A stretch of DNA of 64,000 nt. Source: Sulfurospirillum diekertiae (GTDB taxonomy: Bacteria; Campylobacterota; Campylobacteria; Campylobacterales; Sulfurospirillaceae). The position numbers and the translations under genes were made by a program. The stretch covers positions 1-64,000 of the forward strand of contig NZ_CP023275.1 in assembly GCF_002309535.1 (NCBI RefSeq), given 5' to 3'. Positions 19,787 through 64,000 of this stretch are shown piece by piece. Position 1 is the first letter of the stretch; each line of letters starts with the position of its first letter. The notes beneath the pieces are model-generated. The model did not search any database. It had not been told where the DNA came from and was given only the letters and a program-made list of their open reading frames with translations.

Positions 19787-19866
19787 TATTTTCTCCTTTG
19801 GTTTAAGTACAAAGCATTATAACGAAGAAGCGTGACTTTTGTGTTGTAATCCAATAACGTTTTAGG

Positions 19867-35375: not shown

Positions 35376-35441
35376 GGAGTCAGGCTTTTGTTTAAACTAA
35401 TGTGTTAAAATAGTGTCATATTAATATAAAGGTATTATTTG

Positions 35442-35882: not shown

Positions 35883-36198
35883 TTTACAAAGAATATTTTA
35901 ATAGTATAGATGATAAAAACAGGAAGAAAACAACCTTTCTCTTCGATCCAAATTGAACTGTTGGACATAATTTGGTCACAGTAGAAAAAATTAGGCTTTG
36001 AGAATCTCATAATTTAGGAATTTTTAAAGAAGTGGCCGGGAGAGAGGGATTTAAAAGGCATAAATTTTCTATATTATACATTTTGTAAAATAATCATCAA
36101 AATAGCCTATTTTAGGCTTTAAGATAACTTTCTCAATTTCCAATAATATGTTATTATTCCAATAAAATATAAATTTATGTTGGAAATAGGTTGGAATA
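35883..36198. other. Junction region: backbone end, attL and integrase leader
   Basis: These 316 bases contain no gene. The first 148 are backbone or ancestral tRNA-downstream sequence, then comes the 22-bp attL, then an AT-rich leader with TTGGAA boxes for the integrase. I see no other feature. Confidence 0.7.
36031..36052. other. attL: copy of tRNA-Ser 3' end
   Basis: This 22-bp sequence is identical to 62633-62654, the last T-arm and acceptor bases of tRNA-Ser(TGA). It reads AGTGGCCGGGAGAGA followed by GGGATTT. Identity stops just after (AAAAGG here, GAACCC in the tRNA), so it is not a tRNA gene but a target duplication made by integration. Confidence 0.9.
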
Positions 36199-36200
36199 AT
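36136..36200. promoter_or_regulatory. Four TTGGAA boxes upstream of integrase
   Basis: Two boxes point left (ATTTCCAA 36136-36143, ATTATTCCAA 36153-36162) and two point right (TTGGAAAT 36180-36187, TTGGAATAAT 36191-36200). Each left box is the exact reverse complement of a right one. The last box includes the integrase start codon. They could be integrase or excisionase arm sites that also repress int. Confidence 0.65.
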
Positions 36201-43018: not shown

Positions 43019-44906
43019 TATTGAAGAACGTTTAAATTTTCGATTAGATTTGCTGGAAGATTCAAAAGACCAAGATGGCTTTATTGTTCAAAGCAATTTA
43101 TTATCTCAAGTCCTACCTTCAATGTTGGATGCAAAATTAATTGATTCTGAAGATTTTAATGACTCTTACTTTCACGATCAATCAAATGGTCAAAAACTAA
43201 ATGCGTATACTATAAGTAATTCTGGAGAGCGCTTACAATTATTTATTATTGATGAAAGTACTATTGATGAAACATCGAATCCGGACAAGTTACTGATTTT
43301 ACAAAAGGCTGATTATGACCATCAATTCAAACGTGTTGAGAAGCTGATCAAAAAAGCTTTTAATAGTCAGTTGTTTAATTCCATTCAAGATTCTGATAGA
43401 GCAAAAGTATTAGCCTCAAAACTTGAGTCTATTGAAGGATTTGACGATTTTGATGTTATTGAAATTTTTCTTATATCTTTAACTGTGGCTGTTTCCAATC
43501 AAGGTAAAACTATACAACCAAGAAGTATTTATTTTCAAGAAGAAAAATGTATCAGAACTTTTAAGAGTAAAGAAGAGACAAAGAAAAAAGAGGTCTTAAT
43601 ACTCAAGAAACTTATAGATCTCAATTTTTTGTTCAATGTTATGGTTTCCAAAGGCTATAGAGAAGTATTGACCATTGATTTTGAAAAGACCTTTAACTAT
43701 GGCCTTGAAGCTATTAAAGCCGCAGAAAACGAAAGTTTTGTTTCATATCTTTGTGTATTAAAAGCAGATATTATCGCAGATTTGTATAGACAGTATAGTA
43801 GTAGGCTTTTAGAAAAAAATGTTAGATCTTTTCTTGATTTTAGAGGTGTTAATAAGGGAATAAAAGAAACTATACGAAGAGAGCCTGAAAAGTTTATAGC
43901 ATACAATAACGGTCTTACCATTACAGCAACAGCTGTCAAAACCTATGAAAAGAAACATAAATTATATATCGAATCATTAACAGATTTTCAAATTGTAAAT
44001 GGTGGACAGACAACCGCAACTATTTATTTTTCAAAGAAAGAGAATTTGGATGTCAGCAAAGTCTATGTAATGGCAAAAATTAATGTTGCAAAACAGACAA
44101 ATGATAAAGATCTTGAAAAACTTATTGATAATATTAGTAAATATTCAAATGCACAATCCAAAGTATCAAATGTTGATTTACGATCGCGTAATTCTCAGCT
44201 AATTAAAATTAAGATGTTTAGTGAAAGTGTATTGACTCCAGCAGGTAGAAAATGGTTTTTTGAAAGATCAAAGGGAGAATTTAATACTCTTTTGAGAAAG
44301 GAACGAAGCAATAAAAATAAGATTTTAAAAGATTTTCCTAGCGAAAGAAGATTTACTAAAGAACAACTTGGAAAATATTATTGTGCATGGGGTGAAGAGC
44401 CTTACTTAGTGAAGAAAGGCGGAGAACGAATTTTTAGAAACTTTATAGAGCACCTTAGTCCTGATGAAGATAATGGGAGAATGCCTCCAACAATAGATAG
44501 AGATTATTATGAAGCTTTAATAGCAAAGGTTATTCTATTTAAGGAAATGGAGCTAATTTATGGAACAAGAAATAACGCCATTGGTCAAATTAGATCAGCA
44601 GTAATTCCATATTCTTTATCTATTCTTTATCTCTATACTGATATCCAAAAAAATTACTTTAATTTTCAAAAAATATGGAAAGATGAAGGCGTGGATGAAA
44701 ATTTATCAGTCTTTTTGTGGAATTTAATGAAATTAATGAATGACTTAATTAAAAAATATTCATTAAGTGACGACTTAGGCGAGTATTCAAAAAGAATAGA
44801 GTTATGGGATAGTATAAAACGTTGTCAAGAGATTGATTTCTTTATGTCAGAAGATAAAAATAAAATACTTATGTCGAAATATATAATACAAGCCAAGGTA
44901 AAATAG
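43011..44906 (+). CDS. AIPR-family protein of defence operon
   Basis: The 631-residue protein carries the AIPR (abortive infection phage resistance) region: NVRSFLDFRGVNKGIKETI near residue 270, then FIAYNNGLTITATAV and FQIVNGGQTTATIYF near 300-340. Its biochemical role is not known. It is a steady partner of Z1 and GHKL proteins in restriction-like clusters. One base of overlap links it to the next gene. Confidence 0.9.
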   Translation: MSDIEERLNFRLDLLEDSKDQDGFIVQSNLLSQVLPSMLDAKLIDSEDFNDSYFHDQSNGQKLNAYTISNSGERLQLFIIDESTIDETSNPDKLLILQKADYDHQFKRVEKLIKKAFNSQLFNSIQDSDRAKVLASKLESIEGFDDFDVIEIFLISLTVAVSNQGKTIQPRSIYFQEEKCIRTFKSKEETKKKEVLILKKLIDLNFLFNVMVSKGYREVLTIDFEKTFNYGLEAIKAAENESFVSYLCVLKADIIADLYRQYSSRLLEKNVRSFLDFRGVNKGIKETIRREPEKFIAYNNGLTITATAVKTYEKKHKLYIESLTDFQIVNGGQTTATIYFSKKENLDVSKVYVMAKINVAKQTNDKDLEKLIDNISKYSNAQSKVSNVDLRSRNSQLIKIKMFSESVLTPAGRKWFFERSKGEFNTLLRKERSNKNKILKDFPSERRFTKEQLGKYYCAWGEEPYLVKKGGERIFRNFIEHLSPDEDNGRMPPTIDRDYYEALIAKVILFKEMELIYGTRNNAIGQIRSAVIPYSLSILYLYTDIQKNYFNFQKIWKDEGVDENLSVFLWNLMKLMNDLIKKYSLSDDLGEYSKRIELWDSIKRCQEIDFFMSEDKNKILMSKYIIQAKVK

Positions 44907-45409
44907 TGGATAATTGTATGAATTTGGAAACACTTACGCATTCGGAAATTATTGAGCTTTATAGCAAGTGTATACAAGAATTGAAAAAGAGAAATATCAT
45001 TCGAACAAAGAATATCACTGGTGAAATAGGTGAATATATTGCCTTAGATTTTTATAATAACAACCCTAAGCTACCAAATCTTCAATTTGCACCACCTAGT
45101 ACGGAAAATATTGATGCAATTAGTAGGAAAGGTGAGCGTTATTCTATTAAAACAGTGACCAATCATGGTTCAACGGGAGTTTTTTATGGATTACCATCTC
45201 AAGGATCTCTTGAAATACCAATGCAGAAATTTGAGCATGTCATTATTGTAAAATTAAACGATAATTTTGAATTAGAATGTATTTTGGAATTAACGTGGAA
45301 TGATTTTTTGGAAAATAAAAAATGGCATAGCCGTATGCAAGCTTGGAATTTAACATACTCCAAAAAATTAAAAGAAAAAGCAAAATGTATTTATGAAAAA
45401 GTTTTATAA
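44906..45409 (+). CDS. DUF6998-like protein, possible second nuclease
   Basis: A 167-residue protein starting at GTG 44906 (overlapping the preceding stop) or ATG 44918. GEIGEYIALDFY, then NIDAISRKGERYSIKTV, has the spacing of a small PD-(D/E)XK nuclease: Glu, Asp and Ile-Lys. Whether it cuts DNA is inference. It ends the five-gene operon and is convergent with the methyltransferase gene 22 bases away. Confidence 0.8.
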   Translation: MDNCMNLETLTHSEIIELYSKCIQELKKRNIIRTKNITGEIGEYIALDFYNNNPKLPNLQFAPPSTENIDAISRKGERYSIKTVTNHGSTGVFYGLPSQGSLEIPMQKFEHVIIVKLNDNFELECILELTWNDFLENKKWHSRMQAWNLTYSKKLKEKAKCIYEKVL

Positions 45410-45430
45410 GTAATTTTGCATAAATACATT

Positions 45431-46696
45431 CTATAAATTATCAATTAACTTTTTTATTGTTTTTGCAATCTGTTCTCCCATCTTGGGAGGTACTGCATTG
45501 CCAATTTGTCTAAAAGCAGCTGTTCTAGGGCCTTCAAAATAGAAATCATCAGGAAAGCTTTGCAACCTAGCTGCTTCTCGTATGGATAATGAACGTAATT
45601 GTTGAATATCTGGATGAATATAATAGTGTCCATCCATGGCCATATGGGCAAGAATGGTATGTGATGCTCTTTCATCAGCTTTAATTACATTGAATCGATT
45701 TCTGAATGATTCCGTATTTTTATGGGTAATAAGCTCAGGTCTTTTACTAGCCAATTCTTTATAACAAAGCCTTTTTTTATAAAGATTCCAATCTAAAATT
45801 GCTTCTTTGTATATTTCCCTATCTCTCTCATTATGAGGTCTGGTTTCGTGTTGTGTTAATATATTGAAATTTTTTTCTCGTATATTGGCTTGTATTAAAT
45901 AAGGATTTGTATTTTGAATATATTTATTTTTACCTTCTATCTTTGTGCCAGGTTCAAGTAAAGGTAAATCTTTGAGAAGATCATTGACTAAATATTTATT
46001 AGTATCTATTTTTTCAAAATCAGGATACTGATACTGCATGTTTTTCTTTTTTTTCCAACCTACAATAATGATTCTTCTGCGATTTTGTAATACCCCAAAG
46101 TCAGATGCAATGAGCTCTTTGGGTTCTTCAATATGATATCCAGCTTTATCAATAGCGGCTTTTAAATCTTTAAAATACTGTCCATTTCCAGCACTTTTTA
46201 AACCAGGAACATTTTCAAAAATAAACATTTTAGGTTTAAAGGTAGTTAGAAATTTGACATAATATTTATATAAAAAATTTCTTGGATCAGCATTAACAGA
46301 TTCCTTCATTCTAGCTCTTCCTATGATAGAATATGCTTGGCATGGAGGACCTCCAATAATAACATCGACATGCTGCAAATTTTTATTTTTGAGATTTGCT
46401 TTAATGCGCGAAGTTATTTCAGGAAAAGTTGATTCTGAAATTTCTTTATTTATTACATCATCGGAATGTAAAACATTCGCTTTCTCCCAAAGCGTCTCTG
46501 TTGATATTTTTTTTAAAAGATAATCGTAATAGATATTGAGTTTTCCTTGCTGTTTTAGATTCCAATATGCAGTTCTAGTTTTCAATGTTTTACATGCATA
46601 AGGGTCCAATTCAACATGTCCTACGAAGGTAGCATTGGCTCGGGAAAAGCCTTCTGATAAGCCTCCAGCACCTGAAAATAAATCTAGAACAACCAC
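45431..46696 (-). CDS. DNA (cytosine-5)-methyltransferase
   Basis: All main m5C motifs are in order: I LDLFSGAGGLSEGF near residue 4, IV GGPPCQAYS with the catalytic Cys, VI FENVPGL, VIII QNRRRIIIVGW, IX RSLSIREAARLQSFPDDF and X IGNAVPPKMG. The variable target-recognition region is moderate in size. It is convergent with the Z1-type operon and probably protects the host DNA from it, with an unknown recognition site. The 421-residue length is normal. Confidence 0.95.
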   Translation of the reverse strand: MVVLDLFSGAGGLSEGFSRANATFVGHVELDPYACKTLKTRTAYWNLKQQGKLNIYYDYLLKKISTETLWEKANVLHSDDVINKEISESTFPEITSRIKANLKNKNLQHVDVIIGGPPCQAYSIIGRARMKESVNADPRNFLYKYYVKFLTTFKPKMFIFENVPGLKSAGNGQYFKDLKAAIDKAGYHIEEPKELIASDFGVLQNRRRIIIVGWKKKKNMQYQYPDFEKIDTNKYLVNDLLKDLPLLEPGTKIEGKNKYIQNTNPYLIQANIREKNFNILTQHETRPHNERDREIYKEAILDWNLYKKRLCYKELASKRPELITHKNTESFRNRFNVIKADERASHTILAHMAMDGHYYIHPDIQQLRSLSIREAARLQSFPDDFYFEGPRTAAFRQIGNAVPPKMGEQIAKTIKKLIDNL

Positions 46697-46792: not shown

Positions 46793-47032
46793 ATGCTTGA
46801 TTGTCCAATATGTGCATGGCCGTTAAAAGCCGGTAAAAAAATGGTTTATTGTTATGATGATAGTTGTGGATTTCATATTAATTACGCGCAAAAAGATTTA
46901 TTAAGAGATATCACCAAAAAAGAGGTAGAAGATCTGCTCATGGGTAAAATGATCGAGGGGTTAATTCACCTGGATATTGATGCTCCCAATTTTATTGCCT
47001 CAAAGGTCACCAGTCTTGAATCCTACATGTAA
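46793..47032 (+). CDS. Small zinc-ribbon-like protein, copy 1
   Basis: The 79-residue protein begins MLDCPICAWPLKAGKKMVYC and has a second cysteine near CGFHIN, giving a CxxC...CxxxxxC pattern like a topoisomerase-type zinc ribbon. The helical tail (DITKKEVEDLLMGKMIEGL) follows. A close paralogue lies at 48946-49185. The function is unknown. The Fic gene overlaps its 3' end. Confidence 0.8.
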   Translation: MLDCPICAWPLKAGKKMVYCYDDSCGFHINYAQKDLLRDITKKEVEDLLMGKMIEGLIHLDIDAPNFIASKVTSLESYM

Positions 47033-47861
47033 AGATGATTGTATCAAACTCCTCAATAAATACCAGGACAAATTAACACCAGATCAGTATCGAAATATAG
47101 AAGCCACGATAGGTAATCATGCTCTCGAGGGAATGTTTGCAGATAAATATGATATTGATAGATTGGTACGTATGGCAAAAAATGATTTATCCTATGAAGA
47201 AGCACGTATTGAGGCTATCACAGAGATCAAAAGCATACGTGCACGGATCCAAGATAAGAATATCGATCTGCCACTCTTTGATCAAGAACTATTAGGCTCG
47301 AATAAAGTCGAGGCTATAAACTTAGAAGATTTATTTTTGAAAGAACAAAAACTAACCCTTATCGCAGAATTATCGATAAGACATATGCCGGTTACGGGGA
47401 TCTTCGATTTTAACCACCTCCAGGCTATTCATAAACGCCTTTTTGATGATGTCTATACGTTTGCCGGAAAAGATCGTTTTGAGATGGGATATCCTGGTGT
47501 CTTTGTCAAAGGTGAGACACGCTTCACCCCAGGGATCAAATTACCAGAAGTATCCAAAGCTCTTTTTGATGCGCTGCAAGATGATAAGTTTTTTGTGAAT
47601 TTGGATCATAAAGAATTTGCTCAAGAAATGGCGATCTTCTTTAATGGGTTAAACTTGCTGCATCCATTTCGTGAGGGAAATGGACGAACGCAGCGTTTAT
47701 TCATGGAAGGCGTTGCTCAAAATGCCGGTTATGTTTTATCTCTCCATCAAGTCTCTCAAGAGGCAATGATCAGAGCGTGTCAAAACGCTGCTAAAGGGTT
47801 TATTAATAGCCTCGAGATACTTATAAGACATCATCTTGAGCCGATAGAAAACAAGCGATAG
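47016..47861 (+). CDS. Fic-family protein (AMP-transferase type)
   Basis: The Fic core motif HPFREGNGRTQR is intact near residue 216, so catalysis (usually AMP transfer to a protein hydroxyl) is possible. N-terminal residues resemble a VbhA-like inhibitory helix (IGNHALEGMFADKYDIDRL), but the expected Ser/Thr-x3-Glu is Asn-x3-Glu here, so the autoinhibition idea is uncertain. I pick TTG 47016, nine bases after AAGG; a TTG/ATG start at 46977 or 46980 would overlap the zinc-ribbon gene more. It may act as a toxin. Confidence 0.87.
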   Translation: MNPTCKDDCIKLLNKYQDKLTPDQYRNIEATIGNHALEGMFADKYDIDRLVRMAKNDLSYEEARIEAITEIKSIRARIQDKNIDLPLFDQELLGSNKVEAINLEDLFLKEQKLTLIAELSIRHMPVTGIFDFNHLQAIHKRLFDDVYTFAGKDRFEMGYPGVFVKGETRFTPGIKLPEVSKALFDALQDDKFFVNLDHKEFAQEMAIFFNGLNLLHPFREGNGRTQRLFMEGVAQNAGYVLSLHQVSQEAMIRACQNAAKGFINSLEILIRHHLEPIENKR

Positions 47862-47936
47862 AAGCTCGCTCTCGAGGGAATAAGTGGAAATACCAAGAGC
47901 GTAGCCACAAAGGATCATTGTAATGATCAACCACCG

Positions 47937-48026
47937 CACCTCTTAAACCCACCGATGAAAAAACCGTGCCGGTATTTTTCACAGTGTGTGTAACCCGGTA
48001 CTCTCTCCGGATCAGATCGATGATCA
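47937..48026. repeat. 90-bp direct repeat, copy 1
   Basis: It matches 49531-49620 over 90 bases with seven mismatches and no gap. Both copies end a module that starts with a zinc-ribbon gene, so the pair marks a segmental duplication or a cassette boundary. Neither copy encodes an obvious gene. Confidence 0.85.
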
Positions 48027-48067
48027 CCTTAACCACCTCAAACAAAACCACTTTTAAAATCTTAAAC

Positions 48068-48105
48068 AGCATAGTGTTGCGTATCATGCAACACTATGCT
48101 ATAAT
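48068..48105 (+). promoter_or_regulatory. higBA operator-promoter with 13-bp arms
   Basis: AGCATAGTGTTGC (48068-48080) and GCAACACTATGCT (48088-48100) are perfect inverted arms around a 7-base spacer. The right arm runs into the -10 box TATAAT (48100-48105). Six bases later is the ATG of higB, so binding of the antitoxin would block the promoter and the transcript probably starts at the start codon. Confidence 0.85.
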
Positions 48106-48111
48106 TCTCTC

Positions 48112-48390
48112 ATGATAAAGTCATTCAAGCATAAAGGTCTTCAACTCTTTTTTGAATCAGGCAACCTCAAGGGTATTCAAGCCGATCATGCGAAAAAGCT
48201 TCGTATGCGTTTAGCTGCACTTGATACCGCTATGATCATTGAAGATTTGAAGTTACTTGGATTTGATCTTCATGAGCTTGAAGGCAATAGAAAAGGTATA
48301 TGGTCCATTAAAGTGAATGGTAATTACAGACTCACCTTTACGTTTGAAAATGGTGATGTCTATATTTTAAACTATGAGGACTACCACTAA
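48112..48390 (+). CDS. higB: RelE/HigB-type toxin
   Basis: A 92-residue ParE/RelE-fold protein of the plasmid maintenance killer type: FKHKGLQLFFESGNLKGI, then LRMRLAALDTA and a C-terminal KGIWSIKVNGNYRLTF with the usual basic and aromatic residues for ribosome-dependent mRNA cleavage. The -10 box six bases before ATG and lack of a ribosome site point to a leaderless message. Its end overlaps higA by one base. Confidence 0.92.
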   Translation: MIKSFKHKGLQLFFESGNLKGIQADHAKKLRMRLAALDTAMIIEDLKLLGFDLHELEGNRKGIWSIKVNGNYRLTFTFENGDVYILNYEDYH

Positions 48391-48680
48391 TGAGTATGTA
48401 TAATCCGCCCCATCCTGGGCAATTTATTAAAGAGGTCTATTTAGACGAACTTGGGATCAGTGAGCGAGAAGTAGCGCATAAGCTCAAAGTCGCACCTTCG
48501 ACTTTCCATCGTCTTGTGAGCACACAAACAAGCCTAACACCTGAAATGGCATTACGCCTTTCTAAAACTCTTGGAAGAACGCCTGAGAGTTGGTTGGCCA
48601 TGCAAGATAAATACAGCCTTTGGATGCTTGGACAATCACTTAATCTTGATGCAGTTGAAAAACTAGTAATCTCCGCATAA
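48390..48680 (+). CDS. higA: HigA-type antitoxin
   Basis: The 96-residue protein begins NPPHPGQFIKEVYLDELG, the classic HigA opening, and has an XRE helix-turn-helix (REVAHKLKVAPSTFHRLVS). It binds the toxin and, as dimer, the 13-bp-arm operator upstream. The toxin-first order with overlapping ends is typical of HigBA. Confidence 0.94.
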   Translation: MSMYNPPHPGQFIKEVYLDELGISEREVAHKLKVAPSTFHRLVSTQTSLTPEMALRLSKTLGRTPESWLAMQDKYSLWMLGQSLNLDAVEKLVISA

Positions 48681-52256: not shown

Positions 52257-52682
52257 ATGAAACATGAAAATACAGATATTTTAAAACGGCTAAAAACTCT
52301 TGAAAGTAAACTTGAGAGGTTGACGAGAGAGGAAATGTCCTCAGATCTCTTTATCGAGTTTCGTTTTCTTTTTCAGGGAAATCAAATTCTTACGGGCATT
52401 GTTGATTTAACGCCAAATAATGGAATTATCAAGAGGAAATTTAAGCTTCTAAAGGCTCAGTATGCAATTTGCAAAGAGCGTGCTGAGTTTGCCGTGTGTT
52501 TAGTAAGTAAAAATGATCGCATTTCCACAATCAGCGAGTTTTATGTCACAGGCGAAAGCTTTATGAAAATCACCAGTTTTATGCCAAATGTTGAAGAGTT
52601 TTTTGAATTTGATAAATCGTTTAAAGCGCATTGTGCATCGCTTGATCAAAGTGAGAAAAGGAGTTCACAATGCGCTTCTTAG
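52257..52682 (+). CDS. Hypothetical protein, 141 residues
   Basis: ATG 52257 follows AGAGG. A short coiled coil (LKRLKTLESKLERLTREEM) leads to a mixed fold with no recognised family. Its 3' end overlaps the next gene by 13 bases, so it belongs to the transfer operon. No membrane segment is visible. Confidence 0.72.
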   Translation: MKHENTDILKRLKTLESKLERLTREEMSSDLFIEFRFLFQGNQILTGIVDLTPNNGIIKRKFKLLKAQYAICKERAEFAVCLVSKNDRISTISEFYVTGESFMKITSFMPNVEEFFEFDKSFKAHCASLDQSEKRSSQCAS

Positions 52683-54883
52683 TATTGTTTTTATTTCCTT
52701 TATTCCTTTTTGCTGATGTCGCAAGCGAAAAAGATACGTTAGCGGATTCGCTCTTCACTCATGATGATGCTATCGTCGCACCGGGAGCGTGTTCATTTTC
52801 ATGTCGTGCCGTTGCTGATGGTTATATAACACAGATCATCGATATCGATGCGAAGAGCGGTACAACGCATTGTGAAGTGTATAGTCGTAATAATACAAGT
52901 AAAGCTTTAGGTGTAAATGCCAATCAACAAAACCTTACATGTAAAGCGCAAGCGAATAAAAGCCCTGGTGATTATGCCGGGCAATTGAAGTCGAATTCGG
53001 ATACGAATTATCAGTTAAGCGGAGCAAAATACGAAACTGATACGATGACGTTTTCACGCTTTCTCACCGGTATGGCAACGTTGGATCCGTCTATCGTCGA
53101 CGTTAGTGCGACCAATAGTACTGGCATGCTTCAAGTCAAAAACTCAAATATGCTTTACGGTACAAATATCTCAACCACAAGGCAAGAAACATTTCTATCG
53201 TTCTTTGGTGTAGAGGATGCAACGACGAGTTCAGAGATTGTCTCGAGTGTTGATAGTCTCAATAAAGCGAATCTAGGGTATTTTTATAATCTCTTTTCTA
53301 ATATGTCCTCAATTTATAGCTATCTGCAAAATCTTCTTTTTGCCTTTGTATCTGCATTCTTTATTGTGATTCTTGGATCTAAAAAGCTGCAAGCCTACTT
53401 AGCCAAAGAAAATGACACTACGAATTATCTTAGCAAATTGTATATCCCTCTTATTGCGGTCACGTTGTTTTATATCCCCGTGCCATCAGAAAACAATATA
53501 AAAAGTTCGTTAATGCAATCGATGATTCGCACTTTTATGATTACAAGCACGAAGATTGCCGATAAAGCCGCTGTTATCGCGGCTAATACCTATTTGCAAA
53601 AGCTATATGCAAGTGTAGGCGCAAATACAATGCAAGGTGAAGCGACGATCTATTCGTTACGGGATAGCGCGAAAGCGCAAAAAGAGCTTTATGCCAATGT
53701 AATGCAAGAGTGCAAAGTTCGTTTTCCAGATGCAATGACGTTTCAGGTAGACGATGCTGATCTAGCACAAAAAAGTATCTACAATCTAAACCAAACCAAA
53801 GAGGGAGTTACTGCTAAAGCGTGCAGATCCATTGAACGTAAGTGGCTTATTGCTTCAAAGACCTTCGCACAACAAAGCAAATACGCAGATCAAATTGCGC
53901 AGAGTTTTGGTAATAACGCATTGCAAAGCAAGCTCAATAGCATCAATACATTCCTCAATAATCGTCAAAACGAGCTCGGGTGGATTAACAGCGCGTTTAT
54001 CCCATCGGCCGCTATTTTGGTCGAAATGATGCCACTTGTCGAAGTTGCTAAAAATGGCATTACACAAGATCAAGAAAGCAATCAAGAGAAGATCCGCAAC
54101 GCTTATGCAAGCGGAGATGAGGAGAAAAGTTTACTCGAGAAGATTAAAACCGAAGGCGGTAGCCTCTTCGGTGCGGTTATGGCGAAGATGACCTATATGA
54201 TTCTACCTGGTGTGAATACGGTGTTTCAAGTTTTCAATTCCGTGATTTCAGGCGGCGTTGAGATGCTCACATTCATTGCAACGTTTTTTAGTCCACTTGG
54301 TGGCAAAGCATTTTCATTTATCTCTAAAGGTGGCGGTGGTGCAACGATTCAACTAGCGAGTCTTGTTTTGGCGGCTATGTTCGTAGGACTCATCCTCAAG
54401 TACATTCCATTGATAACATCGATGATTGCCGGAATTTTGGCAGTTGTGGGATGGTTATTTGAATTAACGCAATACTTCTTTATCACGCCGTTTGTCGTTG
54501 CTTATGCTGTAACGATGCGCAAGACGGACAAAATTAGTGAGTACCTCGTCACCGGTATTGTGATCTTTTTTAAGCCGGTACTTCTTGTTATCTTTATTTA
54601 CTTAGGGCTCTTTTTGTACTACCTCTGCATGGATGTGTTCCTTCAATTTGCAGAAGAACAATTTTATCTCCTCGACGCGATCAATCAGAGCTTTTTTGTG
54701 GCAATGGTGTTGCAACTTTCGCTAGGACTTATCAAGATAACTTCATCATTTATGGCCGTGTATCTGATGTGGAAGGTAATCCTATCTGCACCAGGTCATG
54801 TGATAAAAATGATCGGATTGCATAATGTAGGTGACTTCCTCGAGCCAATTTCCAATAAGCTCGAGAGACAATCTCTCGTATAA
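52670..54883 (+). CDS. Large multi-spanning membrane protein (TrbL/VirB6-like layout)
   Basis: The 737-residue protein has a signal peptide (MRFLVLFLFPLFLFA), a cysteine-bearing periplasmic part (CSFSCRA, HCEVY, LTCKAQ), two membrane segments near residues 215-265, a long helical region and six or so membrane segments between about 520 and 720. This resembles conjugation channel proteins of the TrbL/VirB6 or TraG-N kind. It is only a likeness of layout; no motif proves it. It is the only transfer-channel-like gene seen. Confidence 0.65.
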   Translation: MRFLVLFLFPLFLFADVASEKDTLADSLFTHDDAIVAPGACSFSCRAVADGYITQIIDIDAKSGTTHCEVYSRNNTSKALGVNANQQNLTCKAQANKSPGDYAGQLKSNSDTNYQLSGAKYETDTMTFSRFLTGMATLDPSIVDVSATNSTGMLQVKNSNMLYGTNISTTRQETFLSFFGVEDATTSSEIVSSVDSLNKANLGYFYNLFSNMSSIYSYLQNLLFAFVSAFFIVILGSKKLQAYLAKENDTTNYLSKLYIPLIAVTLFYIPVPSENNIKSSLMQSMIRTFMITSTKIADKAAVIAANTYLQKLYASVGANTMQGEATIYSLRDSAKAQKELYANVMQECKVRFPDAMTFQVDDADLAQKSIYNLNQTKEGVTAKACRSIERKWLIASKTFAQQSKYADQIAQSFGNNALQSKLNSINTFLNNRQNELGWINSAFIPSAAILVEMMPLVEVAKNGITQDQESNQEKIRNAYASGDEEKSLLEKIKTEGGSLFGAVMAKMTYMILPGVNTVFQVFNSVISGGVEMLTFIATFFSPLGGKAFSFISKGGGGATIQLASLVLAAMFVGLILKYIPLITSMIAGILAVVGWLFELTQYFFITPFVVAYAVTMRKTDKISEYLVTGIVIFFKPVLLVIFIYLGLFLYYLCMDVFLQFAEEQFYLLDAINQSFFVAMVLQLSLGLIKITSSFMAVYLMWKVILSAPGHVIKMIGLHNVGDFLEPISNKLERQSLV

Positions 54884-55251: not shown

Positions 55252-55656
55252 ATGATGAAACCAGAAACAGCAGAACAAACATATCAATTTTTCGAGGAGG
55301 CTCAGATCGTTTTAAAAACGTTGGAAGAGCATATTTCGTCGTTTAATCAAGCTTCTAAAGTCTTCGAAAAAACGAATAACGATTTTGAAAAAATCGAAAA
55401 AAGTATCGATGGAATCGGTGTAAAGATCGCAGAAAAAATTCAAGTCAACACTATTCAGGCGTATCTCGTGGATGCCGTAAAGGAGCTTGAGAATGTCACC
55501 AAGGATCTAAAAAAACGCAAGCATGAAGAACGTTCCACGTTGAAGATCGTTTTTGCTTCAACGTGCCTTTCCGCGCTTTTAACAAGCATCGTTTTTATAG
55601 CGTTTGAAGCGGCCAATAAACCGCTTCTCAATCTTATCTATCAATTCGTTCATTAA
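55252..55656 (+). CDS. Coiled-coil protein with C-terminal membrane anchor
   Basis: The 134-residue protein is helical with heptad-like stretches (FEEAQIVLKTLEEHISSF, EKTNNDFEKIEKSIDGIG) and one hydrophobic helix near the end (VFASTCLSALLTSIVFIAF). The layout is like small TraN/relaxosome accessory or mobilization-helper proteins (MobB/TrwA-type membrane helpers) but no family match is visible. AAGGAGA precedes the tandem ATGs at 55252 and 55255. Confidence 0.7.
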   Translation: MMKPETAEQTYQFFEEAQIVLKTLEEHISSFNQASKVFEKTNNDFEKIEKSIDGIGVKIAEKIQVNTIQAYLVDAVKELENVTKDLKKRKHEERSTLKIVFASTCLSALLTSIVFIAFEAANKPLLNLIYQFVH

Positions 55657-55666
55657 GGAGAACACC

Positions 55667-56446
55667 ATGAAAAATATCGCAATTATTAATACTAAAGGCG
55701 GCGTAGGTAAAAGCACCCTCGCCTTTCATGTTTTACCGGCTATTTTAGCGGATAGAAATTTTGAGATCATCGAGATCGATAATAACAATAAAACGACGAC
55801 GACGTTTTTAAATACACAGATTCTCAAAGGGAAAATCACCTCGTTAAATATTGCAGAAGGTACGCAAAAGCTTGAGGAACTCGTCGTTACCAATATGCTT
55901 GATGAAGATAAGATCAGCGTGATTGATGCCGGTGGTGGTGATGATTCGCTCAAAGTGATCCATTCGTTTATCGATCAAGATTTGATCGCAGATACGCTGT
56001 TTATCATCCCCTTTATGCCCGATTTCGTACAGCTTAAAAACTTAGTCGATACGTATAACGTTTTACCAGATACAGCAAAGATTCTCGTTGTGTTAAATAA
56101 TGCGGATCTTAGTGATCCAGATCATCTTATGTTTATCAAGGGTCATGAAGATTATGAGATCCCGGATATGGAATCTACGTTTACGCACTTTGCTGTTTGC
56201 CCTAAAAGCCCACTTTTTTCGTATGCTGCTTCACGCAATAAAGAGACGATCAAAGATCTTGCCCTACTCGCAAGCCAATATAACAAAAACGAAATACTTG
56301 AGTATGCAAAGGTGAAAACCAAAGCAAATAGAGACTCCATGACGAAAATTTACCGCAATTGGAAAATTTCACGTAACGCAAAAGATTATATCGAGAGTGA
56401 AGCGATCACGCAGCTTAAAAGTATCATCCTGGGAGAGCAAGCATGA
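55667..56446 (+). CDS. parA: ParA-family partition ATPase
   Basis: The deviant Walker A KGGVGKST near residue 11 and VIDAGGGDD in the Walker A'/B region define a ParA/MinD ATPase of 259 residues. ParA moves plasmids or DNA along the nucleoid together with a DNA-binding partner. ATG 55667 follows AAGGAG. Its stop overlaps the small HTH-like gene by four bases, forming a two-gene cassette followed by a repeat array, the typical order of a plasmid partition system. Confidence 0.9.
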   Translation: MKNIAIINTKGGVGKSTLAFHVLPAILADRNFEIIEIDNNNKTTTTFLNTQILKGKITSLNIAEGTQKLEELVVTNMLDEDKISVIDAGGGDDSLKVIHSFIDQDLIADTLFIIPFMPDFVQLKNLVDTYNVLPDTAKILVVLNNADLSDPDHLMFIKGHEDYEIPDMESTFTHFAVCPKSPLFSYAASRNKETIKDLALLASQYNKNEILEYAKVKTKANRDSMTKIYRNWKISRNAKDYIESEAITQLKSIILGEQA

Positions 56447-56715
56447 AGTTTCAAAATTGGGTTGAACAGAATACGCCTTTAAAGCGTGTCTCTTCTCTGG
56501 AGCCATACAGAGATGAAATTCAAAAGCTCGTGAGTTTGAATTACACACATAATCAGATCGCTGATTATTTACGAGAAGTGAGAGGCCTTGAGATATCAAG
56601 GCAGCAAGTTCAAAAGTTTCTCTCGAAAAAAACAACCAAAGAAAAAGCGGTGCAAGCTGAAAAAGGCGAAACACCGAAAGTGAGTTTAGAGGATAAGTTC
56701 AAAGGATTCCTCTAG
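56443..56715 (+). CDS. Small HTH-like DNA-binding protein, ParA partner
   Basis: A 90-residue protein with the segment YTHNQIADYLREVRGLEISRQQVQKFL, which reads as a helix-turn-helix resembling resolvase/Mu-type or plasmid DNA-binding proteins. A charged tail follows (KKTTKEKAVQAEKGE). The coupling to parA and the repeats that begin 18 bases after its stop make a centromere-binding role likely, by context only. Confidence 0.78.
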   Translation: MKFQNWVEQNTPLKRVSSLEPYRDEIQKLVSLNYTHNQIADYLREVRGLEISRQQVQKFLSKKTTKEKAVQAEKGETPKVSLEDKFKGFL

Positions 56716-56732: not shown

Positions 56733-56842
56733 GCAACCTCGTGCCACCGTAATGCTACCGAAAGCAATCGTATGCAACCACTTGCTACTCAATGCTATCG
56801 AAAAGCTACCGTGTGCCACCAAAGAGCCACTCAAAGGCAACC
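56733..56842. repeat. Eleven helically phased GCNACC repeats
   Basis: GCNA(C/T)(C/T) hexamers start at 56733, 56743, 56754, 56764, 56774, 56784, 56794, 56805, 56815, 56826 and 56837. The steps are 10 or 11 bases, mean 10.4, equal to one DNA turn. An extra GCCACG lies at 56864, then GCCA-n6-TGGC (56864-56877). Sitting between the parA cassette and relaxase gene, it may be a centromere or transfer-origin site for a filament-forming or cooperative protein. Confidence 0.8.
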
Positions 56843-56910
56843 GAGAAAACATTCACACCCAACGCCACGTTAATGGCACAAGGTGAAAAAAAGATAAAAA
56901 AGAGGCAAAA

Positions 56911-59766
56911 ATGCTATCAATTGCCAATATGAATAGTGCCCAAGCAGCTCATTATCATGCAAAGGATCAAAACTATTATCAGCAAGATAAAGAGACAAGC
57001 GTTTGGGCTGGCAAAGGTGCTGAACATTTAGGCTTGAGCGGTGCAATTGATATTAAACAGTTTGAACGATTGTGTTACGGTATTCATCCAAGTGAAGAAC
57101 GCACTCTTGTAGATATTAGTGAAAGAGCGGGAACGGATCTAACTTTTTCCGCTCCAAAATCCGCATCGATCTTATGTGAATTAGGTGATGAGCATACCAA
57201 TCAGCTCATACGTGCAGCACATGATCAAGCGGTGCAAACCACACTAGCATTTGTGGAAGATCATTATGCGCAAACAAGAGAACAAAAAGATGGGCATAGA
57301 GAAGCAATCTCAACCGGTAATCTAATCATCGCTAAATTTCAGCACGATACCAGTCGTGAAAATGATCCGTCATTGCATACGCATTGCTTTATCGTCAATG
57401 CAACGCAAAAAGAGAACGGTGAATGGCGTGCATTACTCAATGATCAGCTCTTTACTCACAAGATGTTTCTAGGCCAGACGTATCGCAATGAATTGGCCAA
57501 AAATCTTCGAGAGCAAGGATTTGCTATTGAGATTACTAATGCTAAAGAAGGATTCTTTGAGATTGAAGGTGTATCTAAAGAGTTGATCCGTGAATTTTCA
57601 CAACGCCGTGAGCAAGTGCTTGAGAAATACGAGGAGCTAAGACAGCAATATCCTGGGCTCGAGGAAGAGAAGCTCAAAGAGATGGCTACAACCGGTAGCC
57701 GAAGCGTCAAAGATAAAAATGCTGATCGCAGTGTCATCAAATCTAACAATATCGAAAGAGCCAAAACCATTCTAGCCGGTAAAGATTTAACCTATCTCAA
57801 TCAGCTTAATAGTACGCAGCTTCATCCAGAGCAGCAAAAATTGACAGCTAAAGATGCGGTGGATCTTTCGATTCGTATTCAAAGCGAAAAGACAAGTGTA
57901 TTTAATCGTGAAGATGTGATGAAAAACGCAATGAAGCTTTCGTTAGGTGAGCATTCACTTAGTGCTATGCAGAGTGCTTTTGATGATCATGTCAATGAGC
58001 GATCGATCGTGCAACTGGATAAAAATGCTTATTCGACACCGGAGCTTTTGCAAAAGGAGTTCGAGATTGTTGAAATGGCAAAAAACCGCACAGCTCCTTT
58101 GATCTCTGTGCAACACGTGGAGCAATATTTAAGCCATACGCCTTATAACCTCACAAAAGGACAACAAGAAGCGTATACGCACATTCTCACAAGTGATGAG
58201 GCTATTTCAGTGATCCAGGGCGATGCTGGCACGGGTAAAACGTTTATGCTTAAGGCAGTCAGAGAAACGCTCGAGAGTCAAAAGCAAAGTAGCAATCTAA
58301 GAGGACTTGCTTTTACTGGAAAAGCCAGTGAAGAGCTGGAGCGTGAAAGTGGTATCCCCTCTACAACGTTACATGCGTTTTTTGTCAATCCACCGGCAGA
58401 AAAAAATATGGTTTATATCGTTGATGAGGCTTCAATGGTCAGTTCGTTACAGATGCACCATTTATGTGAAATTGCCCGTGAAAACCATTCAAAAATCGTG
58501 TTTATCGGTGATCAAAAGCAGTTCCAATCTTTAGGTGCTGGCAATATGTTCTCGCAGCTTCAAAAGCAAAGTAATATCCGTATCGTTGAGATGACGGAAA
58601 ATAAACGTGCGCAAACAGAATTAATGCGATCGCTGTATTCATCTATCAAGAGCAAAGATTTGGAAGAGGCGTTTAGTATTTTGGAAAAGCACCAACGACT
58701 TCATGAAACGACAGATCTCGAGAGGATCAAAAACGAATATCTCAAAGATCGTCATGATACGTTACTTCTCGTTGACACGAACGCGAATCGTAGAGCTTTA
58801 AACGAGTTAATCAGAGCGGATATCGTCACTCAAAATGAAGTCACACAGTCCCAACTGTTATCTATTAAAGAGGCAATCAATCTAAACGAGATTGAAAAAC
58901 ACTACTCGAGCAATTATCAAGTAGGTCAAATTGTTGTCGCGCAAAACGCGTTTCAAGGATTTAGTGCTGGGCAAGAAGCGATGATCACCGAGATCGATCA
59001 TCCATCCAATACGATCACTGTTACCAAAGATGATCAAAGGATCAAAATTGATCTAAGTAAAGCTCACGCTCAAGCGATTCAAACCTTTGCTATCAAAGAA
59101 AAAGCGTTTGGTATCGGAGACAAGATCGTTTTTACAAAAAACAATCGAAACCTCAAGTTTAGAAATGGTGAGACCGCCGTGATCCAAGCGATTCATGGGA
59201 ATATCATCAAAGTGCAAAAGGGAAATAAAGAGTTGGCGTTTGATGCTTCCAAATATCCTTATATCGATCATGGATACGTGATTACAGCGCATAAAAGCCA
59301 AGGGCAAACAACCAGTAAGGTTATCGCTTTCACGAATGCACAAATGGCCAATTTAAACCGCTTCTACGTGCAAATTACCAGGGCAAAACGTGATGCCTTG
59401 ATCTATACCAACAGCATAGCAACACTCAAGGAGAATACACAAAAAACGCAAATTAAAACCAGTACCCTAGATTATTTTAGGTCGGCAATGCAGCATGAGG
59501 CACATACAAATCATAACTACGAAAGGACATTCAATGAGCAAAAAGAACGAAGAATATCAAGAGGATCAACTCTTTCAATACTGGGAGACTATTGCACAAA
59601 GCTCAAAATTGCACTCGCAGATCTTAGCCGACATTTTGGCTTATTTAAAAGAGATCGACGAGAGATTGAAAGCACTCGAGGCAAAGATCAAATGAAAAAT
59701 ATCTTACTTAAAAATGAGCGCGAAAAAGCAGCTCAATCCATAACACAATCACGAGAAAGGAAATAG
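56911..59766 (+). CDS. MobF-type relaxase-helicase (TrwC/TraI family)
   Basis: The N-terminal relaxase domain has catalytic-type residues: a Tyr pair in NYYQQDKETSVW near residue 22, and the metal-binding histidines in HDTSRENDPSLHTHCF near 145-157. The C-terminal part is a superfamily I helicase with Walker A QGDAGTGKTFML near 438 and late motif GYVITAHKSQGQT near 790. It nicks and unwinds DNA for conjugal transfer. At 951 residues it is near normal length. A 53-residue gene is nested in its C-terminus. Confidence 0.94.
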   Translation: MLSIANMNSAQAAHYHAKDQNYYQQDKETSVWAGKGAEHLGLSGAIDIKQFERLCYGIHPSEERTLVDISERAGTDLTFSAPKSASILCELGDEHTNQLIRAAHDQAVQTTLAFVEDHYAQTREQKDGHREAISTGNLIIAKFQHDTSRENDPSLHTHCFIVNATQKENGEWRALLNDQLFTHKMFLGQTYRNELAKNLREQGFAIEITNAKEGFFEIEGVSKELIREFSQRREQVLEKYEELRQQYPGLEEEKLKEMATTGSRSVKDKNADRSVIKSNNIERAKTILAGKDLTYLNQLNSTQLHPEQQKLTAKDAVDLSIRIQSEKTSVFNREDVMKNAMKLSLGEHSLSAMQSAFDDHVNERSIVQLDKNAYSTPELLQKEFEIVEMAKNRTAPLISVQHVEQYLSHTPYNLTKGQQEAYTHILTSDEAISVIQGDAGTGKTFMLKAVRETLESQKQSSNLRGLAFTGKASEELERESGIPSTTLHAFFVNPPAEKNMVYIVDEASMVSSLQMHHLCEIARENHSKIVFIGDQKQFQSLGAGNMFSQLQKQSNIRIVEMTENKRAQTELMRSLYSSIKSKDLEEAFSILEKHQRLHETTDLERIKNEYLKDRHDTLLLVDTNANRRALNELIRADIVTQNEVTQSQLLSIKEAINLNEIEKHYSSNYQVGQIVVAQNAFQGFSAGQEAMITEIDHPSNTITVTKDDQRIKIDLSKAHAQAIQTFAIKEKAFGIGDKIVFTKNNRNLKFRNGETAVIQAIHGNIIKVQKGNKELAFDASKYPYIDHGYVITAHKSQGQTTSKVIAFTNAQMANLNRFYVQITRAKRDALIYTNSIATLKENTQKTQIKTSTLDYFRSAMQHEAHTNHNYERTFNEQKERRISRGSTLSILGDYCTKLKIALADLSRHFGLFKRDRREIESTRGKDQMKNILLKNEREKAAQSITQSRERK
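59534..59695 (+). CDS. Nested small coiled-coil gene inside relaxase
   Basis: An out-of-frame ATG at 59534 follows AAAGGA by six bases and opens 53 codons (MSKKNEEYQEDQLFQYW..., ending LKEIDERLKALEAKIK). The product is a helical, heptad-like protein. The relaxase frame here encodes a basic, low-constraint tail, so a real overlapping gene is possible. The good ribosome site argues for translation; the function would be unknown. Confidence 0.55.
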   Translation: MSKKNEEYQEDQLFQYWETIAQSSKLHSQILADILAYLKEIDERLKALEAKIK

Positions 59767-59768
59767 TA

Positions 59769-61337
59769 ATGTCAACGATTTTATTATGTTTATTGTTTAA
59801 TGCCGGTGCTTTATGGGTATTTCAAAAGAACCTTCCAATACCATGTGGTGCAGTCTTTGTGCTACTTTGTATTGTAGAGTATCTCGTATGGGCATTTATT
59901 TTCAAAAGACAAGAATCGATCAATGGTCGTATCTTTGATGATAAGGCGTGGGTAATGGGAAGTTATCCCAATTACTATGAGCAAACAGAAGGCAATCGAT
60001 GGACGGCTTCAAAGCGTGTTAAAGAAATTATGTCAAAAGGTGAATTGTTCCTGGATCAGTTCCGGTTTGATCGTATCGTTTTATATCGTTTGTCGCCAGT
60101 ATATGGATTGGCTAGTAAATTTAATGATTTTGACTGTTATGCGGATCCGGTAGATTTTACGCAATCAGGAATTATATTTGGTGGTATGGGATCAGGTAAA
60201 ACAGAATTTTACCACTCCATTATTGCACAAGATAAGTTCGATCGTGTAGTCGCGTATGATACCAAAGGTGATCTTGTGCAAAAGCATTATAGTGTGTTGA
60301 AAGATATTATCTTAAATCCGTATGATCAACGAAGCCATATTTGGAATCCTTTCGAAGAGGCTAAAACGAGTCCTTTCGTTACGGAGATATTTTTAACCAA
60401 TCTTTTCAATGCGTTAAGTGGCACACAAAAAGACTTTTTTAGCGCAAGCTCCAAACAACGCTATATGAAGCTTTTTAACGATATCCTTTACAACAACAGT
60501 GAGCTTTCATCGAATGAGCAGTTTGATCTTTTTATTCAACAGCTCAAGGAGTATTTCGAAGAAAATAAAAATCATGAAAGACGTAGTGAAGCGGATGTTG
60601 CCAGTACGATGCATTTGACGTTTGAATTTTTTGATTATATGAACTTTTGTATTCAAAATGGCAGCCCTACTTTTACGATTAAAGAGTATCTCTCTCGTAA
60701 GAGCTGCAAGCTCTTCTTACTCTCAAGGGATGATCAGCGCTCAAAGCTTACACCATTCTTTACTGGCTTTTTGGCCGCTTTGACGGCCGTCATGTTAAGC
60801 CAAGAAGATCAAAAAACCTCTCTCACTCTCTTTGCTCTTGATGAATACCTCTCTTTTGCTCAAAACCTCGATAGTGAAACGATCGAGGGGTTACATACCA
60901 GGATCAGAAGTAAAGGCGGTTGTTTGCTTCCTGGTGTGCAATATTTCCCAGAGCAAAGTAACAAGGCAGACAGTGCTCAAGGTATTACGCAAAAGATGTT
61001 AAACTCAGCAGCCTATTGGTTTTTATTTCAAGGTGTGGATGAGTATACACTCAAAAAGATCAATAGTACGATCGGTAAAGTACGCTATAGAAAAGAGCAG
61101 ATCAGAGAGCAACTTGTTGCGGATCCTTTGAATCGTAAAAATTACCAAATCGAAGAATCGGATCTGCTAAATACCAGTTTGTTTCAATCGTTAGGCCAAA
61201 ATTATGAGCATATCACGTTTGTACCGTCGAAACGAATTTTGTATAAAGGGTATACGCCAAGAGCGGAATTGCCAAGTAAAAAAGCGAACTACATACAAAG
61301 TGAGAATATCGAAAGATACTATCAAAGAAAATACTAA
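59769..61337 (+). CDS. Type IV coupling protein (TraD/TrwB-like)
   Basis: Two N-terminal membrane segments (about 3-18 and 22-44) precede a TraG/TraD ATPase: Walker A IIFGGMGSGKTEF near residue 140, then VVAYDTKGDLV, and Walker B LTLFALDEYLS near 357. The enzyme delivers relaxase-bound DNA to the secretion channel. It starts nine bases... close behind the relaxase, with AAAGGAAA before the ATG. The length of 522 residues is normal. Confidence 0.92.
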   Translation: MSTILLCLLFNAGALWVFQKNLPIPCGAVFVLLCIVEYLVWAFIFKRQESINGRIFDDKAWVMGSYPNYYEQTEGNRWTASKRVKEIMSKGELFLDQFRFDRIVLYRLSPVYGLASKFNDFDCYADPVDFTQSGIIFGGMGSGKTEFYHSIIAQDKFDRVVAYDTKGDLVQKHYSVLKDIILNPYDQRSHIWNPFEEAKTSPFVTEIFLTNLFNALSGTQKDFFSASSKQRYMKLFNDILYNNSELSSNEQFDLFIQQLKEYFEENKNHERRSEADVASTMHLTFEFFDYMNFCIQNGSPTFTIKEYLSRKSCKLFLLSRDDQRSKLTPFFTGFLAALTAVMLSQEDQKTSLTLFALDEYLSFAQNLDSETIEGLHTRIRSKGGCLLPGVQYFPEQSNKADSAQGITQKMLNSAAYWFLFQGVDEYTLKKINSTIGKVRYRKEQIREQLVADPLNRKNYQIEESDLLNTSLFQSLGQNYEHITFVPSKRILYKGYTPRAELPSKKANYIQSENIERYYQRKY

Positions 61338-62558: not shown

Positions 62559-62632
62559 AGAAGCTTTTTTGATTTTTCTTAAATTGCTTTAGAGTATCGA
62601 TAAAATAGGAGTTTTAAAAGAGTTTAAGGATT

Positions 62633-62654
62633 AGTGGCCGGGAGAGAGGGATTT
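62633..62654. other. attR: 3' end of tRNA-Ser(TGA)
   Basis: The same 22 bases as 36031-36052. Here they are part of an intact tRNA gene, so integration restores the tRNA on this side. Confidence 0.9.
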
Positions 62655-62722
62655 GAACCCCCGGAGGTATTACCCTCAACGGTTTTCAAGACCGCCGCAT
62701 TAAGCCGCTCTGCCATCTCCCG
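62635..62722 (-). tRNA. tRNA-Ser (anticodon TGA)
   Basis: An 88-nt class II tRNA on the minus strand: acceptor CGGGAGA/TCTCCCG, discriminator G, encoded CCA, long variable arm, anticodon loop CTTGAAA and T-loop GGTTCAAATCC. Its 3' end is the integration target of the element. It is the last gene of a four-tRNA cluster read from the right. Confidence 0.97.
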
Positions 62723-62756
62723 ACAGAAAGTTTGTAGATGATATATGATATCAAGG

Positions 62757-62830
62757 TGGAGGCGACACCCGGATTTGAACCGGGGATCAAGGCTTTGCAG
62801 GCCCATGCCTTACCGCTTGGCTATATCGCC
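62757..62830 (-). tRNA. tRNA-Cys (anticodon GCA)
   Basis: A 74-nt minus-strand tRNA with acceptor GGCGATA/TGTCGCC, encoded CCA and anticodon loop CCTGCAAAG. The D-arm AGCCAAGCGGTAAGGC and T-arm are normal. Confidence 0.97.
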
Positions 62831-62852
62831 ACCGTATTTCTCTATATAGAGG

Positions 62853-62939
62853 TGGTGCCCGGAGCCGGATTTGAACCGGCACACCCAAACGGGCGAGGGA
62901 TTTTAAGTCCCTTGCGTCTACCAGTTTCGCCATCCGGGC
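62853..62939 (-). tRNA. tRNA-Leu (anticodon TAA)
   Basis: An 87-nt class II tRNA with acceptor GCCCGGA/TCCGGGC, discriminator A, encoded CCA, a long variable arm and anticodon loop ACTTAAAAT. Confidence 0.97.
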
Positions 62940-62968
62940 AACGCGTTTCTTTTTAAGATTAAACTAAA

Positions 62969-63043
<75 letters not shown>

Positions 63044-63061
63044 ATCTAAAAAAGAGTTGAG

Positions 63062-63067
63062 AGTATA
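63062..63067 (-). promoter_or_regulatory. -10 box of tRNA cluster promoter
   Basis: TATACT with preceding TGC on the minus strand lies 19 bases before tRNA-Gly, a spacing suited to a short 5' leader. A TTTACATGTAA near-palindrome is further upstream at 63110-63120. Confidence 0.7.
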
Positions 63068-63140
63068 GCAGTTTTTTTTCGTAATGTAAAGTCATTTGCG
63101 TAAAATTATTTACATGTAAGCTTTTTTAGAGCGGTTTTGC

Positions 63141-63146
63141 TATAAT
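63141..63146 (+). promoter_or_regulatory. -10 box of ilvD promoter
   Basis: TATAAT with a preceding TTGC lies 25 bases before the ilvD start codon. No clear -35 box is seen, as is common in this phylum. Confidence 0.7.
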
Positions 63147-63171
63147 TTAAAAAATTTTTTAAGGAATATTG

Positions 63172-64000
63172 ATGCGAAGTGATCAAGTCAAAAAAGGGTA
63201 TAACAGAGCGCCACATCGAAGTTTATTTCGAGCGACAGGTTTAAAGGACGAAGATTTTAATAAACCATTTATTGGAGTAGCAAACTCTTATATTGATATT
63301 ATTCCAGGTCACTTCTTTTTGCATGAGTATGGTGTTATCATTAAAGATGAGATTCGTAAGAATGGTTGTGTACCGTTTGAATTTAATACGATTGGCGTGG
63401 ATGACGGTATAGCAATGGGACATGATGGTATGCTCTACTCACTTCCAAGCCGTGAGCTGATCGCCAATTCGATTGAGACAATGATGAATGCGCACATGTT
63501 AGATGCGATGATTTGTATTCCTAACTGTGACAAAATCGTTCCGGGAATGATTATGGGCGCACTTCGTGTTAATGTTCCAACGGTGTTTGTGAGTGGTGGA
63601 CCGATGAAAAAAGGTTATACGAAAGAGGGAGCACCTCTTGATTTGAACTCTGCCTTTGAAGCTGTTGGTAAGTTTGAAAAAGGGGATATTACCGAATCGG
63701 AACTGACGGATATTGAGTGCAATGCTTGTCCAAGTGGTGGTAGTTGTTCTGGTATGTTTACAGCCAACAGTATGAATACACTCATGGAAGCAATGGGTAT
63801 TGCTCTTCCTGGGAATGGAACAATCCCTGCTTTGACACCTGAACGTGAAGTTCTTTTACGTGCAGCAGCAAAACGAATTTGTGAAATTGCCGTTGATGAT
63901 CGTTTTAAACTTAGAAATATCTTGAATGAAAAAGCTGTGCGTAATGCGTTTGCGATCGATATGGCAATGGGTGGAAGTTCCAATACAGTTTTGCACATGT
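63172..64000 (+). CDS. ilvD: Dihydroxy-acid dehydratase, 5' part
   Basis: The frame opens at ATG 63172 after AAGGAA and runs off the window with 276 codons. [23 protein letters not shown] is the family start; [13 protein letters not shown] and [20 protein letters not shown] carry iron-sulphur cysteines. IlvD dehydrates dihydroxy acids to 2-keto acids in isoleucine and valine synthesis. The 3' half lies beyond the window. Confidence 0.96.

Follow-up and report, generated by a model that had tools for sequence, protein, structure and literature searches.

A helically phased repeat array beside a predicted transfer origin in an integrated Campylobacterota element: a probable site of a StbA/TraK-like protein

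An integrated element with a ParA-like ATPase, a small HTH protein and a MobF relaxase

The window, by which we mean the whole 64,000-nucleotide stretch of Sulfurospirillum diekertiae DNA that was analysed, contains a 26.6 kb element integrated at tRNA-Ser and bounded by a 22-bp direct repeat, with the left copy (AGTGGCCGGGAGAGAGGGATTT) at 36031–36052 and the right copy at 62633–62654, where it forms the 3' end of tRNA-Ser(tga). The site is empty in another genome of the same species (G015), in which window positions 34523–36052 join 62623–64000 directly with a 30-bp overlap. The cargo comprises a tyrosine integrase (36199–37296, plus strand), a Mza-like defence cluster, a Fic protein, a HigBA pair, a MobF relaxase and a TraD/TrwB coupling protein. 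The defence region (37565–46696) holds MzaB-, MzaC-, MzaD- and MzaE-like genes together with a methyl-directed restriction enzyme-like gene and a DrmMII-like cytosine methyltransferase; at 46977–48680 it is followed by the Fic/DOC protein and then by a HigB-like toxin paired with an HTH antitoxin. The relaxase is a relaxase-helicase of the TrwC/TraI type (56911–59766, plus strand; Pfam TrwC, E 8e-86), and the coupling protein gene lies just downstream (59769–61337, plus strand). A search of the genome with one Pfam family, CagE_TrbE_VirB, found no VirB4-type domain anywhere, so the element looks mobilizable rather than self-transmissible and is treated as such here.

Upstream of parA, a 737-aa membrane protein (52670–54883) without a Pfam or NCBIfam match is kept in sister elements and recognisable in three distant loci (L073, L094 and L105); its position suggests that it is transfer-related (VirB6/TraG-N-like). 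Directly upstream of parA lies a gene for a 134-aa protein with a coiled coil and one transmembrane segment (55252–55656, plus strand), which is also kept in sister elements and has no detectable similarity to StbC of plasmid R388. The ParA-like ATPase itself (55667–56446, plus strand; Pfam AAA_31/CbiA) has the Walker A motif KGGVGKST and occupies the position of StbB/TraL, beside the HTH gene. Because its match to NCBIfam StbB (E 4e-8, 33 bits) falls below the curated cut-off of 200, we regard it as a relative, and not a member, of that subfamily. The KGG form of the Walker motif has been assigned to the TraL/MobD group of MOBP plasmids and not to R388 (PMC3098194); at this locus a KGG-type ParA is combined with a MOBF relaxase. 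The ATPase gene is followed by that of a 90-aa HTH protein (56443–56715, plus strand). All three neighbours named in the original prediction (a ParA-like ATPase, a 90-aa HTH protein and a MobF/TrwC relaxase) were thus confirmed.

Eleven hexamers in phase with the helical turn

The repeat array lies between the HTH gene and the relaxase gene (56733–56842, plus strand). It holds exactly eleven GCNA(C/T)(C/T) hexamers, starting at 56733, 56743, 56754, 56764, 56774, 56784, 56794, 56805, 56815, 56826 and 56837; the steps between them are 10, 11, 10, 10, 10, 10, 11, 10, 11 and 11 bp, with a mean of 10.4, and in copy number, spacing and coordinates the original prediction was exact. Its claim that the copies face one side of the helix is likewise borne out by a phase coherence of R = 0.955 at a 10.4-bp period. 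The background rate of GCNAYY in the window is 0.42 per 110 bp, and the longest run of hexamers at 10/11-bp steps, 11 in the array, was at most 2 in 200 dinucleotide shuffles of 14 kb. A pattern search of the complete genome (2,814,086 bp) found three phased hexamers in a row nine times within the array and once outside it. We also applied a chain test that assumes no motif and scores the best chain of eight 7-mers at 10/11-bp steps; here the array ranked first in the 64-kb window with a score of 65, against 57 for the runner-up and maxima of at most 54 in 14-kb shuffles.

A coding repeat, which had already been ruled out on the basis of the spacing, can be rejected, as none of the window's long open reading frames spans the array and the steps are not triplet. 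A CRISPR or tandem satellite is rejected too, as the spacers between hexamers vary and the units are 6 bp long. No plasmid DNA resembling the array region was found, and a search of IMG/VR gave no viral relatives.

A hairpin and a predicted nic site beside the array

Between the array and the start of the relaxase gene, the minus strand reads TGCCA-TTAACG-TGGCG-TTGGGTGT^GAATG, that is, a hairpin, 8 nt and an F-type nic core. The hairpin (56863–56878, minus strand) has a 5-bp stem, TGCCA/TGGCG, with one G-T pair and a 6-nt loop. The predicted nic, GTTGGGTGT^GAATG, would fall between 56855 and 56854 on the minus strand, where it matches the F nic core GTGGGGTGT^GG. The arrangement is that of F-like MOBF nic regions, in which a hairpin, 8–9 nt and GGTGT^G stand on the strand opposite the relaxase gene. 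Since about 4% of shuffles of the window's hairpin region reach an equal stem, we place the weight of the nic prediction on its conservation in relatives: the hairpin layout is kept in four of them (G032, G030, G013 and G165), where the stem letters differ yet still pair. The last hexamer lies 12 bp from the predicted nic. Nicking at this position would lead the array, the 90-aa gene and parA into the recipient first and the relaxase gene last, which is the layout of R388, and would place the array on the leading side of an oriT beside the relaxase gene.

The 90-aa protein is most likely a distant relative of StbA and TraK

An AlphaFold2 model of the 90-aa protein consists of helices at residues 3–9, 20–31, 36–47 and 53–67, followed by a disordered tail. 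When an alignment of its family (23 members) was compared with StbA of R388, StbA of R46, TraD of NAH7 and TraK of R751 by profile-profile alignment (hhalign), the two were collinear over 61 columns, with a probability of 94 and an E-value of 1.5e-7; five unrelated DNA-binding or plasmid proteins used as decoys gave probabilities of at most 2.2% over at most 17 columns. Against single sequences, the same family profile gave 58% for NAH7 TraD, 15% for R388 StbA and 3% for R751 TraK. R751 TraK belongs to Pfam DUF5338, a family touched by two members of the 90-aa family (best E 4e-4). An hmmsearch with the family profile missed the solved StbA domain (7PC1), and a Foldseek search with the model returned generic HTH matches only (a phage small terminase, 4xvn, with Z 6.6; Pax-6; transposases), with 7PC1 not among the matches listed. 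The 90-aa protein is thus most likely a distant relative of StbA (R388) and TraK (RP4), the link being visible at the level of profiles.

We also considered a Type Ib partition centromere of the ParG/ParR/omega type, which is rejected by the model, an all-helical HTH over residues 1–67 with no strand; no RHH family match was found for the protein.

Phased arrays of unrelated letters beside homologues

The original prediction had named a lack of phasing in homologous elements as a refutation; the check found phasing in nearly all those tested and so did not refute it. Known systems served as positive controls: the same chain test detected phased arrays between stbA or traD and oriT in R388 (score 61, Z 8.8), R46 (78, Z 12.7) and NAH7 (59, Z 6.3), the last at 19760–19843, directly upstream of traD. 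The exceptions were R751, an IncP relative with TraK, and one MOBP relative (L077, in genome G345), neither of which has a significant array by this test. A search for related loci with the 90-aa protein alone gave two close loci. Homologues in other genera, spread across Campylobacterota, carry arrays of unrelated motifs beside the gene, namely GYAACC, TGTGAAC, TTAATA, TCAAGAA, TTGTCAA, TTGAGAA and AAAGCTC, and Salmonella and Citrobacter plasmids with a MOBP relaxase and a TraL-like ATPase have a CGCACAG array beside the homologous gene. Helical spacing is therefore conserved while the letters of the repeat are free to change, and the linkage of such arrays to a StbA-like/ParA gene pair extends over both MOBF and MOBP elements.

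Twenty further loci were fetched only once the chain test had been fixed, with 57 stretches of the same loci as controls. Six of these held-out loci have a ParA neighbour; their median Z was 5.8, with five of the six at Z of at least 4.7, as compared with a median of 0.7 in the control stretches, of which none exceeded 5 (p 6e-5). Weak profile matches lacking a ParA neighbour (for example L069, L074 and L083), which are probably other HTH proteins, were mostly without arrays. In L094, from the element of L012, a weaker array lies between parA and the relaxase gene (score 56, reached in 0 of 200 shuffles). The gene order is HTH-then-ParA in this relative and in L099, L101 and L105.

Array and HTH segment change together in sister elements

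Two sister elements (in genomes G016 and G022) closely resemble the window in ParA (93% and 88% at the amino-acid level), relaxase (95% and 94%) and the nic segment (94% and 90% of DNA), whereas only 18 of 31 residues are identical in the HTH segment (residues 36–66), the array matches at 71%, and the motif has changed from GCNACC to GYAACC. The arrays of these two genomes are identical at 138 of 139 positions. In three others (G028, G018 and G033), 29–30 of the 31 HTH residues are identical to those of the window and the array at 96–99%, and ParA, relaxase and nic segment are about as similar to the window in the first group as in the second. HTH segment and array are thus either unchanged or changed jointly amid constant ParA, nic and relaxase, and therefore change as a unit. 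Because this reflects one evolutionary event, seen in two genomes, we take it as suggestive and not as proof; it is nevertheless the strongest evidence for the 90-aa protein as reader of the array, and it argues against ParA, the relaxase or a host factor in that role.

In G022, the homologue of the 90-aa protein (L009:1501–1755) is apparently frameshifted near its 3' end, giving an 84-aa product with a downstream segment that matches in another frame; the HTH and the array are intact.

Comparison with known systems

The kind of site described here is already known from StbA/stbDR and TraK/oriT. In R388, the stbDRs are 9-bp repeats 2 bp apart, which gives a period of 11 bp, and they lie next to oriT and to a gene for a ParA-like protein; StbA binds them, and its effects on stability and transfer act through them (PMC3098194). 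Like the window, the stbABC region of R388 (IncW, MOBF11) combines a small HTH protein, a ParA-like ATPase and direct repeats at one per helical turn on the leading side of a MOBF oriT. R388 differs in having two sets of five 9-bp repeats at a fixed 11-bp period around the stbA promoter, whereas the window has one set of eleven hexamers at mixed 10/11-bp steps; its genes run stbA-stbB-stbC, whereas in the window parA precedes the HTH gene and the array lies downstream of the latter, before the relaxase gene; its ATPase has a deviant SGxxGK motif in place of KGGVGKST; and it is a plasmid, whereas the window's locus belongs to an integrated element in Campylobacterota. Assignment to a narrowly defined R388 stbABC operon is rejected on the order of parA and HTH gene, the downstream array and the dissimilarity of the 134-aa protein to StbC.

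NAH7 (MOBF) likewise pairs a StbA homologue, TraD, with a phased array next to oriT, made up of TGCACC repeats at an 11-bp period and located at the traD promoter; it differs from the window in motif, gene order and regularity of spacing. The traDEF promoter region, which TraD shields from DNase I in footprints (PMC12421886), lies immediately upstream of traD, as does the array. RP4 and R751 (IncP-1, MOBP11) have an HTH protein (TraK, DUF5338) and a KGG-type ParA-like ATPase (TraL) beside oriT; unlike the window, R751 has a MOBP relaxase and no significant phased array by the chain test. TraK of RP4 is cited in PMC3098194 as binding DNA between nic and traK. The VirC1/VirC2–overdrive system, compared here by description, also resembles the window in having a ParA-like ATPase at a site beside an oriT-like border. 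VirC2 has a different DNA-binding fold, and overdrive is a different site. In Agrobacterium, this ATPase recruits the relaxosome (PMC4949242).

The original prediction had offered the array as either a new type of centromere or an accessory site of a transfer origin. Both are properties of StbA/stbDR-type sites, a class that homology, position, conservation and co-variation support; what is not supported is the "new type", for which the R388 stbDRs are a published precedent (PMC3098194).

Proposed role and alternatives

We consider it likely, judging from sequence comparisons, that the StbA/TraK-like 90-aa protein has its DNA site in the array beside oriT and that the array, together with the ParA-like ATPase, positions the excised element and its relaxosome and tunes nicking and relaxase expression, balancing transfer against retention. 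By analogy with StbA/StbB and TraD, each hexamer would be one HTH contact of the 90-aa protein, and the 10–11-bp spacing would align its protomers on one helix face, so that they form an unbroken nucleoprotein patch, about 110 bp long, directly on the predicted oriT's leading side. After excision, the ParA-like ATPase, in the role of StbB/TraL, may be recruited to and act on this patch, placing the circular DNA and the relaxosome at the nucleoid or the membrane, while the patch would tune access of the relaxase, nicking and relaxase expression; the outcome would be a balance of transfer and retention like that struck by StbA/StbB in R388. As the element is integrated, a role in segregation would be relevant only after excision; the main role probably lies in the control of transfer, and keeping the excised circle comes second. 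Besides the profile-level homology and the relatives lacking a significant array (R751 and L077), two features of layout run against the StbA reading: the array follows the HTH gene and precedes the relaxase gene rather than lying in a stbA promoter, and the gene order is parA-then-HTH.

The array might instead be a classical centromere only, a parS to which the 90-aa protein binds and through which ParA segregates an excised, replicating element, with the proximity of oriT incidental. A ParA with the classical KGGVGKST motif, a small DNA-binding protein and iterated repeats do make up the usual small-ParB layout, but in the MOBF elements covered here the array borders the oriT on the relaxase side, and it is kept near the relaxase in the MOBP elements that carry the pair (L003, L004 and L075). 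Moreover, the homologous stb module acts on both stability and transfer, and R388 does not require StbB for its stability (PMC3098194). We therefore regard this explanation as unlikely.

Eleven phased copies in 110 bp exceed an ordinary operator, and we saw no convincing sigma-70 promoter in the region; it is accordingly quite improbable that the 90-aa protein binds the array purely as a repressor of relaxase expression, with no part in positioning DNA. In favour of this reading, the array stands 5' of the relaxase gene, the R388 stbDRs overlap the stb promoter and have copies in other promoters (PMC3098194), and the DNA protected by NAH7 TraD includes a promoter (PMC12421886).

Very improbable, despite an array that ends 12 bp short of the predicted nic on its leading side and a one-turn phasing that may give curvature, is an accessory site for the relaxase or an IHF-like host factor, or curved DNA aiding the melting of oriT, with the 90-aa protein unrelated: array and HTH change jointly while relaxase and nic stay constant, the motifs of relatives are unrelated in a way that a conserved host factor would not allow, the same pairing is found with MOBP relaxases, and a single A-run of four in the array does not make a phased A-tract bend.

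The StbA/TraK-like reading extends a little-understood module, so far detailed in R388, to integrated Campylobacterota elements and MOBP plasmids. What differs from the known cases is the position of the array, which separates the HTH gene from the relaxase gene downstream, the mixed 10/11-bp steps, the pairing of a KGG-type ParA with a MOBF relaxase, the group of hosts, and the conservation of phase while the sequence is free. The sister elements in which array and HTH have changed jointly offer a specificity-swap system for StbA-type recognition and would allow a direct study of the way in which conjugation is tied to the positioning of DNA by StbA-like proteins and ParA-like ATPases. The combination of a phased array with the hairpin/nic signature may also aid in finding unannotated oriT regions. 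As a tentative generalization, about which we are more doubtful than confident, such arrays could be widespread oriT-flanking "phase codes": the StbA/TraK superfamily would read a conserved helical phase while the letters drift with the HTH, giving each element a private address, and a one-sided helical assembly of StbA-like proteins would link the positioning driven by ParA with control of the relaxosome, in elements of both the MOBF and the MOBP type from Campylobacterota and Enterobacterales.

Two further observations concern individual arrays. In the Salmonella and Citrobacter MPF_I plasmids (rep_cluster_505), the CGCACAG array has 10/11-bp steps and lies between mobC/relaxase and a StbA/TraK-like gene of 138–142 aa (L003:5738–5815 and L004:5717–5794), and is possibly an undescribed TraK-type site of those plasmids. 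In two Campylobacterota loci (L066:3855–3938 and L073:3882–3964), TTGAGAA/TTGTCAA arrays are followed on the opposite strand by GCGTGGGGTGTGT, which is almost letter-for-letter the nic core of the F plasmid.
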